Positions 43,123 to 51,015 of a DNA stretch of 64,000 nucleotides are shown here, piece after piece (position 1 is the stretch's first letter; each line of letters begins with the position of its first letter). Origin of the DNA: a candidate division NC10 bacterium CSP1-5 (lineage in GTDB: Bacteria > Methylomirabilota > Methylomirabilia > Methylomirabilales > CSP1-5). The DNA is taken from contig LDXR01000008.1 of the NCBI GenBank assembly GCA_001443495.1, positions 69,595 through 133,594 of the forward strand, given 5' to 3'. Made by a program: the position numbers and the translations under genes. The notes below the pieces were generated by a model. That model was not told where the DNA came from, ran no database searches, and saw nothing but the letters and a program-made list of their open reading frames with translations.

Positions 43123-44109
43123 TTAAGCTTTCCCTTCCCGGGGGAGGGCGGCGCCGATCACGGAGCCGAGGGAATCAAAGCCGTGGCGGGTGAGATACGC
43201 CTCGACCCCGGCCAGAACGTTCATCGACGCCAATGGATCGAGAAAATTGGCGGTCCCGACCTGGACCGCGCTCGCCCCGGCGAGGAGGAACTCGATCGCA
43301 TCGTTACCGGTCATGATCCCGCCGATCCCGATGAGCGGGAGCTTCACCGCCCGCGCAACCTCCCAGACCATGCGAACCGCAATGGGACGAATGGCCGGGC
43401 CGGACAGCCCGCCGGTGGCCCCCGGCAACTTCGGTCGGCGGGTGCGCCCGTCGATCGCCATGCCGACGATGGTGTTGATTAGCGAGAGCGCATCCGCCCC
43501 CGCATCGGCCGCCGCCCGGGCGATCACGGTGATGTCGGCCACGTTGGGAGAGAGTTTGGGGATCACCGGGAGCGAGGTCGCTTGCCGGACGGCGCGGACC
43601 ACCTCGTACGTGAGGGTCGGGTCGGTGCCGAAGTCCAGGCCGCCGGCCACGTTAGGACAGGAGATGTTGAGTTCGATGCCGGCGACCCCCTCGACATCGG
43701 TGAGTCGCTTGGCCAGGGTGGCAAACTCTTCGACCGATTTTCCAGCAATGTTCACCAAGAGCGGAGTGGTGAGTGACCGAAAGAACGGGAGCTTGTGACG
43801 AAGGAAGGCGTCGATCCCGACATTCTGGAGGCCGATGGAATTGAGCATCCCTCCTGGGGTCTCGACGATTCGCGGGGGAGGATTCCCCTGTCGGGAATGC
43901 ATCGTCACCGTCTTGACGATGATGGCTCCTAACGCGTTGAGGTCGAAGAAGCGGGTAAACTCTGTCCCGTATCCGAAGGTCCCCGAGGCGGTCATCACCG
44001 GGTTTTTCATGGCAATCCCGGCGATCGTTACCGCCAGGTTCGGCCGCTTGCTCGACGACCGACGACGGCCCTGGTCTTTACCTGAACCTTTTCTTTTTTT
44101 GGAGGTCAC
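43123..44109 (-). CDS. pyrD: Dihydroorotate dehydrogenase, catalytic subunit
   Basis: A 328-residue class 1B flavoprotein. It oxidises dihydroorotate and passes electrons through PyrK to NAD+. The catalytic Cys is in ELNISCPNVAGG, and the FMN-binding GIGGIMTGNDAIEFL and phosphate loop NTIVGMAIDGRTRRPKL are present. The N-terminal 20 residues (KKRKGSGKDQGRRRSSSKRP) are extra: part is encoded by a GTCGTCGGTCGTCG repeat, like those in intergenic DNA. It overlaps pyrK by 4 bp and is the last gene of the pyr operon. Confidence 0.93.
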   Translation of the reverse strand: MTSKKRKGSGKDQGRRRSSSKRPNLAVTIAGIAMKNPVMTASGTFGYGTEFTRFFDLNALGAIIVKTVTMHSRQGNPPPRIVETPGGMLNSIGLQNVGIDAFLRHKLPFFRSLTTPLLVNIAGKSVEEFATLAKRLTDVEGVAGIELNISCPNVAGGLDFGTDPTLTYEVVRAVRQATSLPVIPKLSPNVADITVIARAAADAGADALSLINTIVGMAIDGRTRRPKLPGATGGLSGPAIRPIAVRMVWEVARAVKLPLIGIGGIMTGNDAIEFLLAGASAVQVGTANFLDPLASMNVLAGVEAYLTRHGFDSLGSVIGAALPREGKA

Positions 44110-45026
44110 CAGGCAATCTCCTGCGCGTCGAACACTGGGCCATCCTTACAACAGAGCTTATAGCTTCGGTCGTTCATGGTTGATAGTTCGTCGTTCATGG
44201 CCGGAGGTTTCCTTGATCCCTGAACCCTGAACCCTGAACCCTGAACGGGGATGACGCATCCCATGCACGCCCCAAACCCGCAGCCCATCTCGGCCTCCAG
44301 CGAGACCTGACAGGGAATCTCGAATCGCTCGGCGACCCGCGCGACGGCATGGAGCATCGGGTGAGGACCGCAGGCGTAAATCGTTGACCGTCGACCGTCG
44401 ACCGATGACCGGAGGAACGAATCCAAGAGGTCGGTCACGAGGCCCCGATGGCCGAGACTGCCGTCTTCGGTGGCGACGTGGACCGTCGCCCCCGCCTTGC
44501 GAAGGTCGGCGGCACAGAGGATGTCGTGGCGGGTCTTCCCCCCGATGAACGCCACCATTCGTCGATGTCCGATGTCTCTCTTCCGTGAAGCGTGAACTGT
44601 GAACCGTGAACGCCGTAGACTTTCGGCCAGTGCGACGACCGGAGGGACCCCGATGCCTCCCGCCACTAGGAGGGTGGTGGTGAGGTTGCGAGGGACCCGA
44701 TAACCGTTCCCCAAGGGGCCTAAGAAGTCGACGCGATCTCCCCGCTTGAGCTGAGAGAGGGCGGTCGTGCCCTTCCCGATCACCTTGTAGAGGATCTCGA
44801 CCACGGTCTTCCCGCCTCCGGCCCGCCTTCCGGGGCGCTTGACTCGCAGGATGCTGTAGGCCCTCGGCAGGAAGGGGTCGAGCGATCCCGAGGGCTTCAC
44901 CATGACGAACTGTCCCGGCTCAAAGACCAGACGGGGTGAGGTGAATCGCTGGAGGTAGTAGTCTCCGTGGAGCCTGTGGAGCGAATCCACCTCAGCGTGC
45001 ATGACCCCCCTCGGCTCCTTTGCCAT
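44106..45026 (-). CDS. pyrK: Dihydroorotate dehydrogenase electron transfer subunit
   Basis: A 306-residue FAD/[2Fe-2S] subunit. The FAD-binding RAYSIL and NAD motif [17 protein letters not shown] are seen. Cluster ligands are C-GFGA-C-MG-C and the last Cys in [10 protein letters not shown]. Between the third and fourth ligands lie about 35 residues rather than about 14. The extra segment ([11 protein letters not shown]...[13 protein letters not shown]) is encoded by tandem heptamers. Two other repeat-derived inserts are visible ([15 protein letters not shown] and [11 protein letters not shown]). The ATG at 45026 overlaps carB; 45002 is another start with GAGGGGGG before it. Confidence 0.9.
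44160..44250. repeat. Tandem heptamer repeats inside pyrK
   Basis: Four copies of CCCTGAA (44218-44246) and TTCATGG-type units (44174-44200) encode the insert between the iron-sulfur ligands of PyrK. On the coding strand the unit is GGTTCAG, which has no stop in any frame; the reverse would give TGA. Confidence 0.75.
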
Positions 45027-48000
45027 TGTACTCCTGCAACGTCTTCACCTGGAGACCCTCCGCTCTGAGGGCTCGGATCCCCTGAACCGCCGCATAGGCC
45101 GCTGCCATGGTCGTAAAGCAAGGGATGCCCTGGTTGATGGCGGTCCGCCGGATGGAGTACGAATCGAGCCGCGAGGTGCGACCCTCGGGAGTGTTGACCA
45201 CCAGGACAATCTCCCCGCTCTTCATCCGGTCGACGATGTGGGGGCGGACTCCCTCGGTCACCTTGTACACACGCTCGGCAGCGACGCCCCCCTCCTCGAG
45301 ACAACGCGCCGTGCCCTCCGTGGCCAGGATGTGAAAGCCGAGGTCGGCGAACGCCTGACCGAGCCGGGGAAGGTTGGGTTTATCCGGATCCCGCACGCTG
45401 AGGAAAACCTTCCCCTGAAGCGGCAACGTCCCGCTCGCCGCGATCTGGGACTTGGCGAAGGCGCGGCCGAAGTCTCGATCGATTCCCATCACCTCGCCCG
45501 TGGACTTCATCTCCGGGCCAAGAATGGCATCGACCCCGCTGAATTTCACGAAGGGAAGCACCGCCTCCTTCACGGCCACGTGGCTCAGGCGTGGCTCCCG
45601 GGTGAACCCGAGCTCTTCCAACGTCATGCCCGCCATGACCTTTGTGGCCAACTTGGCCAGGGGGATCCCCGTTGCCTTGCTGACGAAGGGGACCGTCCGG
45701 GAGGCCCGGGGGTTCACCTCGAGGACATAGACGGTGGAGTTCTTGATGGCGAACTGGATGTTGATCAGGCCCACCACCTGAAGCTCCAAGGCTAACGCAA
45801 TCGTCTGTTCCCGGATCTCGTCGAGGGTTTTGGCCGGCACCGACCGCGGCGGCAGGGAGCAGGCGGAGTCTCCCGAATGGATCCCCGCCTCTTCGATGTG
45901 CTCCATGATGCCGCCGATCACGACCCGACGCCCATCCGCGATCGCATCCACGTCCATCTCGATGGCATCTTCCAGGAACTTGTCGATCAGGACCGGATGT
46001 TCGGGAGAGGCCTGAACGGCCCGCTCCATGTATCCCACGAGGCTCACTTCATCGTAGACGATCTCCATGGCCCGTCCCCCGAGGACGTAGGAGGGGCGGA
46101 CCAGCACGGGATAGCCGATCTGCCTGGCGATCCGGGTCGCCTCAGTCACGGAGATGGCTGTGCCGCTCGGGGCCTGGTTGAGCCCGAGCTGGTTGAGGAG
46201 TTGCCGAAACCGCTCCCGGTCTTCCGCGCGGTCAATGGCCTCCGAGGAGGTGCCCCAGAGGCGGACGCCGAGCCGCTGCAGGGGGACGGCGAGCTTGAGC
46301 GGGGTCTGGCCGCCGAACTGCACGATGACACCGTCCGGTTGCTCGCGGTCTAGGATGTTCAGGACATCCTCAAGCGTGAGCGGCTCGAAGTAGAGGCGGT
46401 CGGAGGTGTCGTAATCGGTCGAGACCGTCTCGGGGTTACAGTTCACCATGATGGCCTCGTACCCTAGCTCCTTCAGGGCAAATGCGGCGTGGACGCAGCA
46501 GTAGTCAAATTCGATGCCCTGGCCGATTCGGTTGGGGCCCGAGCCCAGGATGACGACCTTTTTTCGGGTCGTCGGGTTGGCTTCACACTCCCGCTCATAT
46601 GTGGAGTAGAGGTAGGGGGTGAAGGCCTGGAATTCGGCGGCGCAGGTGTCCACCATCTTGAAGGTAGCCTGGATGCCCAGCTTGCGTCGCGCGTCGCGGA
46701 TGGTGAGTTCATCGGAGCCGGTCAGTTGGGCCAGCCTCCGGTCGGCGAACCCGATCGCCTTGGCGGCGCGCAACCTCTCGGGGCTCAGCAGGCGCAGGAG
46801 GGCCTTGGACCCGGTCTGTACTATTTCTTCTTCCATCTCGACGATCTCACGGATGTTCTCCAAGAACCACGGGTCGATCCGGGTCAGTTCATGAACCTCT
46901 CGCGCGTCCATCTTGAGACGGAAGGCGTCAGCGATATAGAAGAGGCGTTCCCAGGTGGGGACACGGAGCCGCTCCCGGACGGCCTCCCGCCAGGCCTCGC
47001 CGCTCATCTCGGTGAGCCGGGGGCCGCGGGCCGCGCACCGGCTCTCCAGGCCGTAGATATCAATCTCCAACGAGCGGATGGCCTTCTGGAGCGCCTCCTT
47101 GAAGGTGCGACCGATGGCCATTACCTCGCCTACCGACTTCATCTGGGTCGTTAACGTTTCATCCGCCCCCGGGAACTTCTCAAACGCAAAGCGGGGGAGC
47201 TTCACCACACAGTAATCCAGCGTCGGTTCGAAGGAGGCAGGGGTGGATTGGGTGATGTCGTTCTTGATCTCGTCGAGGGAATAGCCCACCGACAGGAGGG
47301 CGGCGATCTTGGCGATGGGGAAGCCGGTCGCCTTGCTGGCCAGGGCTGAGGACCGGGAAACCCTGGGGTTCATCTCGATCACGACCAGTCGGCCATCCGT
47401 GGGTCCGACGGCGAACTGGATGTTGGAGCCGCCGGTCTCCACGCCGATCTCCCGGATGATGGCGATGGCCGCGTCCCGCATGATCTGGTATTCCTTGTCG
47501 GTGAGGGTCTGGGCGGGGGCGACGGTGATGGAGTCTCCGGTGTGAATCCCCATCGGATCGAAGTTCTCGATGGAGCAGACGATGACCACGTTGTCCTTCC
47601 GGTCCCGCATCACCTCGAGCTCGAACTCTTTCCACCCGATGACGGACGCCTCGATCAGGACCTGATGGACCGGGCTCGTGCTGAGGCCCCACTGGACGTG
47701 CTCTTGGAACTCCTCCCGGTTGTAGGCGATGCTGCCGCCGGTCCCGCCCAGGGTGAAGGAGGGACGGATGATAGCGGGAAAGCCGACCCGCCCGATGATC
47801 GCATCGGCCTCCTCGATCGACCGGGCGTATCCGCTCTCTGGCACTTCGAGCCCGATCCGGGCCATAGCCTGTTTGAACAGGTCCCGATCCTCGGCTTTCT
47901 TGATCGTCTCGAGGGGCGCCCCGATCAGCTCCACCTGGTACTTGTCCAGGATGCCGCTTTCGCCCAGCGCCAGGGCGAGATTGAGTCCGGTCTGCCCCCC

Positions 48001-50905: not shown

Positions 50906-50927
50906 CTCACGCTCCGTTGCACTCCGC

Positions 50928-51015
50928 GGGTTCAGGGTTCATCGTTCAGGGTTTATGGTCGGTACTTCAGAGATTCTCGGGCTACCATGAACCATGAACC
51001 ACGCACCATGAACGA
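50928..51015. repeat. Heptamer repeats between pyrC and pyrB
   Basis: GGGTTCAGGGTTCATCGTTCAGGG on one side and ACCATGAACCATGAACC... units on the other fill almost the whole pyrB-pyrC gap. They share the unit types seen inside the coding regions of pyrC, pyrK, carA and pyrD. Confidence 0.7.

Follow-up and report, generated by a model that had tools for sequence, protein, structure and literature searches.

Convergent heptad arrays at fixed addresses with exchangeable units in the pyr operon and genome of an NC10 bacterium

Many bacteria have an excess of heptamer repeats for which there is no accepted reason. The GGGAATC repeats of Xanthomonas and the GGGGA(C/T)T repeats of Nostoc have five of seven positions well conserved and a preference for four units; in Xanthomonas many form convergent pairs, mostly intergenic and near stop or start codons, and 83% keep the same gene context between two species. 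Each of these genomes carries one G-rich class, which has been explained by G-quadruplexes (Rehm et al. 2015, PMC4692102). Among the elements listed for Geobacter metallireducens are tandem sets of four (or five) heptanucleotides, located both inside genes and between them, for which a regulatory role was proposed; they include GGGACCG with 49 copies and MTYCTGA sites (PMC2700814). The TAACTGA direct repeats of Beggiatoaceae place stops in all three frames when read one way, and copies in the opposite direction lie inside open reading frames (MacGregor 2015, PMC4679880). Each dimer of the Omega protein of plasmid pSM19035 occupies a single 7-bp WATCACW repeat, and a minimum of four contiguous heptads is required for full activity (PMC9499535). 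Rickettsia palindromic elements (RPEs) reside in frame within protein genes (reviewed in PMC10969869). Here we describe heptad arrays in a 64-kb stretch of DNA (the window; contig LDXR01000008.1, positions 69,595 to 133,594) of the candidate division NC10 bacterium CSP1-5 (GCA_001443495.1), whose pyr operon carries them between and inside its genes, and in the remainder of this 2.77-Mb genome of 40 contigs (G000) and its relatives.

Array structure and persistence of addresses

Heptad arrays of this lineage occupy addresses that outlive their occupants: sister genomes keep an array at a given site and often swap its sequence class. The array unit consists of an invariant pentamer followed by a freer dinucleotide (NN), e.g. 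GTTCANN, and the pentamers include GTTCA, TCAGC, GACCG, CTGAG, GTCCG and GTGAT. Classes, assigned from these short cores, are designated A (GTTCA), B (CTGAGNN), C (TCAGC), D (with an ATCAC core) and E (GACCGNN). The CSP1-5 genome contains more than 100 short head-to-tail 7-base arrays, mostly arranged as facing pairs. GTTCA is the commonest exact core (41 of 116 classified arrays), followed by GCTGA (TCAGC), CTCAG, CGGTC (GACCG) and others.

A chance origin of these arrays is excluded. The pattern (TGAN4)x4 has 97 genome-wide matches against four for its reversed control, and 459 kb of unbiased DNA yielded 37 period-7 arrays with a score of at least 10, compared with 0-4 arrays for the control periods 4, 5, 10, 11 and 13, and nine for period 8. 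Intergenic DNA holds 24 of the 37, and the density is 0.39 arrays per kb there as against 0.025 per kb inside genes (genes were called with a home-made codon model). The original prediction, made from the letters of the window, had concentrated on arrays that enter genes; such arrays exist, but the overlap count places most of them between genes, usually as one arm of a pair. Within the window, a period-7 scan distinguished eight segments, and Tandem Repeats Finder detected (TGAACCC)4.7 at 44214-44246. The signal is present in five families of the order, while a family survey gave nothing beyond single matches in family f3 (G008, G012, G015 and G018) and in the class-mates f7. An assembly artefact is unlikely, since the single-contig genome G026 (2,752,854 bp), with AGGGTNN as its dominant unit, also has 34 arrays in 400 kb. 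The reversed control pattern AGT-N4 is itself strongly enriched in several genomes of family f6, e.g. G024, which suggests further unit classes there.

Most arrays form half of a convergent pair, in which about four units, a spacer and about four inverted units follow one another. A scan of 0.84 Mb of CSP1-5 DNA and 0.90 Mb of the sister genome G005 revealed 57 inward class-A pairs, none outward and none with reversed cores, together with 20 inward and no outward class-C pairs; convergent pairing is absolute for the scanned classes. The modal arm has four cores (36/57 first arms and 36/57 second arms in class A), and the arms are separated by 3-95 bp. In CSP1-5, 28 of 32 pairs lie between co-directional genes (Fisher p 0.04 against gaps of at least 60 bp). 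They typically begin a few bases past a stop codon, and from their end it is mostly 5-25 bp to the next start, so that pairs occupy the gap between the stop codon and the Shine-Dalgarno site, or else non-conserved protein loops.

Period-8 arrays of the GCTNGGAN and AATGGAGC types share the convergent layout, and at some addresses they stand in place of a heptad pair (CSP1-5 L123:1926-2042, C2:166876, C2:282069-282130, C2:95901/95953 and L131:5596/5652; G005 L250:2535-2650).

Persistence of addresses was assessed in depth against this one close sister, of which about 0.9 Mb was sampled; the CSP1-5 stretches beyond C2 and the window were selected for array content. Of 28 CSP1-5 array sites with flanks that could be located in G005 (about 95% identical, mostly 90-98%), 24 hold heptads there too, whereas only 15 of the 67 control gaps do so (Fisher p 2e-8). 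Reciprocally, 27 of 36 G005 sites bear heptads in CSP1-5, and several of the apparently empty counterparts hold period-8 or weaker pairs when inspected by eye. The class agreed at only 8 of 26 sites (octad and H types added by eye), where 6.6 would be expected if classes were independent. Class A faces class C at L115:2139, upstream of a hisH-like gene, and a period-8 pair at L121:7133; D is exchanged with A at L125:13990, and GACCG with A at C2:22171. At the level of the order, comparison with G026 gave one possible shared address among only 13 conserved gene pairs in the sampled DNA.

Neither simple repeat slippage nor an ordinary jumping element explains such swaps at kept addresses. A more elaborate mobile-element explanation is a serious rival, although we consider it rather unlikely. 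The pairs would be short non-autonomous palindromic elements (RPE-, REPIN- or MITE-like, the last being miniature inverted-repeat transposable elements) moved by a putative enzyme; only protein loops and slots between cistrons would tolerate insertion, old elements would be replaced by new ones or receive them, and classes would be element families. Whole pairs including their spacers are indeed replaced at the same place, an old F arm remains beside a newer A pair at L128:11209, and in-frame residence in genes is known for RPEs (PMC10969869). L129:7795 shows a clean 73-bp presence/absence; at this single clean empty site, however, no target-site duplication is seen. The spacers are also private. 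When about 85 pairs from two genomes were compared all against all, spacers matched only between orthologues, in one probable assembly duplicate and over a few stretches of very short length, so the repeated conserved body expected of an RPE or MITE is missing, and a second copy of the 65-bp spacer at L115 is absent from seven genomes. Moreover, copying alone leaves unexplained why conserved pentamers stand beside free dinucleotides and why the arms are anti-matched (see below). Nor does anything point to copying as the way in which the unit would spread, as originally predicted: the spacers are private, the one clean empty site has no duplication, and neighbouring units bear no trace of slippage.

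Two candidate enzymes were rejected. The Y1/REP-associated transposase (PF01797) does not correlate with the arrays, giving no hit in the array-bearing genomes G001 (92% complete) and G024 (99% complete), and one weak hit in CSP1-5. Reverse transcriptase (RVT_1), considered for telomerase-like writing or writing of the diversity-generating retroelement type, was not found in CSP1-5. Inheritance of the spacer as conserved local DNA was likewise discarded: at switched intergenic sites spacer similarity is no higher than in random pairs, apart from a weak exception at L122:8489, and the coding spacer in carA is the other exception.

Constraint on units and arms

In CSP1-5, with all classes combined, variation is concentrated in two adjacent phases of the heptad (0.744 versus 0.675 for shuffled phases, p<0.002). 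When aligned arms of the same class were compared between CSP1-5 and G005, approximately 4 of 165 core bases had changed as opposed to 17 of 46 NN bases (hand count, p 1e-9), a contrast that favours the cores because the arm pairs were chosen for sharing a class. In 128 exact four-core class-A arms from three genomes the first base of the dinucleotide is A in only 2 of 384 cases and its second base T in only 3 of 384.

In the same 128 arms neighbouring dinucleotides are identical in 9.8% of cases, against 13.7% expected. Being no more alike than chance, they carry no signature of slippage, and slippage in its simple form was rejected. Across the two arms, matching at NN is avoided (7.7% versus 22% expected in class A, p<2e-4; 0/40 versus 14% in class C, p 0.002). 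Perfect arm-to-arm matches of at least 12 bp are accordingly scarce relative to shuffled pairs, with 14 observed and 25.5 expected in class A, and none observed and 5.5 expected in class C. Since their dinucleotides are anti-matched and neighbours are not alike, the arms are not fresh products of slippage, nor are they perfect stems kept by selection.

These observations bear on two further explanations. The first is neutral turnover, in which slippage preferring 7 bp would be seeded at chance short dyads and addresses would be shared only because every sister leaves the same DNA free of constraint. A bacterial excess of period 7 is known, and polymerase slippage has been proposed for it (PMC4692102). 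Within the PyrC loop of L036, TGACCCC has been homogenised fourfold. In a sensor-kinase-like gene, arms of one unit in CSP1-5 (C2:255400-255470) correspond to arms of four units in G005 (L203:1045-1116), which has 21 additional bp in frame on each side of a conserved spacer; this exact three-unit difference on both sides implies that arms can grow or shrink locally. Neutral turnover is nevertheless improbable: neighbouring units are no more alike than chance, one and the same pentamer is met at dozens of sites that are unrelated, as are their spacers, the two arms of a pair belong to one class and face inward only, and 52 of 67 control gaps have no heptads.

The second explanation invokes intercistronic mRNA stem-loops that tune stability or termination, where the stem alone would be important and its sequence could vary. 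Folding of the pairs is favourable (z about -4 and dG about -34 kcal/mol, both medians), they lie between the stop codon and the Shine-Dalgarno site of co-directional genes, and the structure outlives the sequence class. Strong z-scores, however, follow from the pentamers, which pair by construction, and pairs also lie within the coding sequences of pyrK and carA. Arms that avoid complementarity at NN rather than compensate for changes led us to reject selection of an RNA stem, and RNA hairpins appear the least probable of the explanations considered.

We favour, with a probability of roughly 0.4, the reading that the arrays serve as docking arrays for a heptad-binding protein. Each pentamer would be a site for a sequence-specific protein whose copies bind next to one another at 7-bp steps and which requires roughly four adjoining units, like the ribbon-helix-helix ParB/Omega of pSM19035 on its WATCACW heptads; each class would have a binder of its own, and these binders would be interchangeable. 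The pentamers would be maintained by selection, which would leave NN free to drift towards combinations that break long perfect palindromes and runs of identical neighbours, both of which would be unstable DNA. We infer the step from constrained sequence to protein binding. More doubtful is the extended proposal of chromosome-wide fixed docking addresses with interchangeable 4+4 pentamer arrays, on which several coexisting specificities would replace each other over species time, with selection favouring the pentamer, disfavouring palindromes and, in genes, keeping the frame open.

Several observations weigh against docking. The ribbon-helix-helix family RHH_1 (PF01402) gave one hit in CSP1-5 and none in G001, and no binding protein has been identified, other DNA-binding folds not having been screened; its absence from the array-bearing G001 at 92% completeness also led us to reject RHH_1 as the common factor. 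It is odd that an address used by a specific binder should change class, and arrays of period 8 with the convergent layout would not be expected from a strict 7-bp footprint. The excess of the 5+2 pattern over shuffled phases is only moderate for all classes together, and the two-phase concentration is weaker in G005 (p 0.05) and G026 (p 0.04). Some arrays, mainly in G026 with a few in CSP1-5, are perfect, slippage-like repeats, and the symmetric length change in the sensor-kinase-like gene points in the same direction.

Arrays in genes of the pyr operon

The pyr operon (pyrB, pyrC, carA, carB, pyrK and pyrD) is encoded on the minus strand of the window, and heptad arrays were confirmed inside pyrK, carA and pyrC and in the pyrC-pyrB gap. 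Relatives of PyrC come from Candidatus Methylomirabilota / NC10 assemblies, which places the organism in that group. The pyrK gene contains a complete convergent class-A pair. Its first arm (44172..44197, minus strand) reads GTTCATG GTTGATA GTTCGTC GTTCA on the plus strand, with the sense sequence ATGAACGACGAACTATCAACCATGAAC translated as MNDELSTMN; a spacer of 16 bp follows (44198..44213), and the second arm (44214..44246, minus strand) is (TGAACCC)n on the plus strand and is translated into 11 residues of PyrK. At the place of this pair G005 has a class-C (TCAGC) pair, G006 has class C, and G001 and G004 have class-A variants. Further along pyrK there is a class-E (GACCGNN) array translated into 10 residues (44382..44411, minus strand) and a class-A array read as RFTVHAS (44584..44611, minus strand); at the latter site G005 has TGAACNG units and a class-E array. 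The C-terminal loop of PyrK is of class A or C depending on the genus member. An array had also been claimed for pyrD, which has only a short class-E (GTCGTCG-type) stretch, CGACGACCGACGACGG, at its N-terminus (44053..44068, minus strand), longer in G005 and other sisters.

In the carA loop (minus strand), a class-B (CTGAGNN) first arm (48944..48966) is followed by a spacer encoding the conserved segment QLDLF (48967..48996) and by a degenerate second arm, ACTCGGGACTCATGGCTCCTGGCTC (48997..49026), read by eye. Sampled genus members carry class E in this loop and CSP1-5 alone has class-B arms. The loop measures 91 bp in both CSP1-5 and G005, and the QLDLF spacer is kept while both arms differ. 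The class-A array of pyrC (50769..50795, minus strand) is read as QGSGFRVQ and corresponds to homologous TGAAC/TGACC arrays in sisters. The pyrC-pyrB gap is filled by a convergent class-A pair of GTTCA units, spacer and TGAAC units (50930..51013); depending on the sister, this gap holds class A, class A with another spacer, a class-E pair (G003 and G006) or an AATTCG palindrome with class E (G001).

Two additional features were noted in sister genomes. A 24-bp palindrome, GACTTCGGCGAGCTCAGTCGAGCC, is repeated in frame in loops and inside class-E arms of several of them, with sites at the PyrD N-terminus of L192 (G005) and in the CarA/PyrK loops of L163, L164 and L169. In L037 (MAG-BB-18) the CarB alignment is split around 14638-14640, with approximately 46 residues missing, perhaps owing to an assembly gap or a frameshift.

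Three units correspond to seven codons, and the reading frame is kept, as predicted. The further expectation of stop-free sense and stop-rich antisense strands holds in part: 8 of 21 genic arrays are stop-free in every frame of the coding strand while all three frames of the opposite strand contain stops, with no case of the reverse (sign test p 0.008), but in another 6 one or two frames of the coding strand are interrupted by stops, and two of these 6 overrun the called gene end. The proposed tolerance of a single orientation was not confirmed, as pyrK holds both arms of one pair; the sense arm MNDELSTMN stays open since no TGA of its middle units falls into the frame that is read. What counts for arrays in genes is the frame, not the orientation, and in dispensable protein loops only open-frame versions persist.

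Relatives outside the genus have no inserts at the PyrC, CarA and PyrK loops, which identifies the arrays there as inserts. The original prediction was right in that the arrays avoid in-frame stops and, within genes, lie in loops not conserved in relatives. Genus members, in contrast, carry arrays at these same loops. As the genus has long done so, often with another class, these loops are old addresses with changing content and not the targets of a recent invasion. The original prediction had thus seen fragments of a larger structure, and missed the pairing, the fixed addresses and the exchange of classes.

Comparison with known heptamer systems

Tandem four-heptad arrays were already known from Xanthomonas and Geobacter; what looks new is the 5+2 grammar, together with the exchange of class at fixed addresses, of which no report was found in the open-licence literature searched. 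The elements listed for G. metallireducens come from one genome, and no study of class exchange or arm structure was seen with that listing (PMC2700814). The TAACTGA repeats of Beggiatoaceae follow the stop-free logic that had been proposed for the NC10 arrays, but consist of a single exact unit, include only one indirect repeat and lie mostly near start codons. RPEs are about 150 bp long with a conserved encoded peptide, whereas the NC10 arms are heptads and their spacers private. The parS site of pSM19035 is similar in its 7-bp units with a short core, its tandem and inverted arrangement and its four contiguous repeats, and class D shares ATCAC with it; parS is, however, a plasmid centromere with a known protein, while neither a cognate protein nor a ParA partner has been identified for the NC10 arrays.

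The likeness is greatest to the heptamers of Xanthomonas and Nostoc: the NC10 arrays are tandem, prefer four units, form convergent pairs (as in Xanthomonas) and are mostly intergenic. Unlike those genomes, the NC10 genome has many coexisting classes that are not G-rich and replace each other at fixed addresses. The cores GTTCA, TCAGC and GACCG have no G-tract, although AGGGTNN of G026 has one. Because so many classes are not G-rich, the arrays argue against the G-quadruplex as the general cause of the four-unit preference. The essential enzymes CarA, PyrK and PyrC carry in-frame arrays in their loops, with the sequence exchanged. Class exchange at fixed addresses makes the question of function versus parasitism directly testable, and the NC10 lineage separates what is constant in such repeats (the 7-bp step, the four units, the convergent arms and the address) from what is free (the unit sequence and the spacer).

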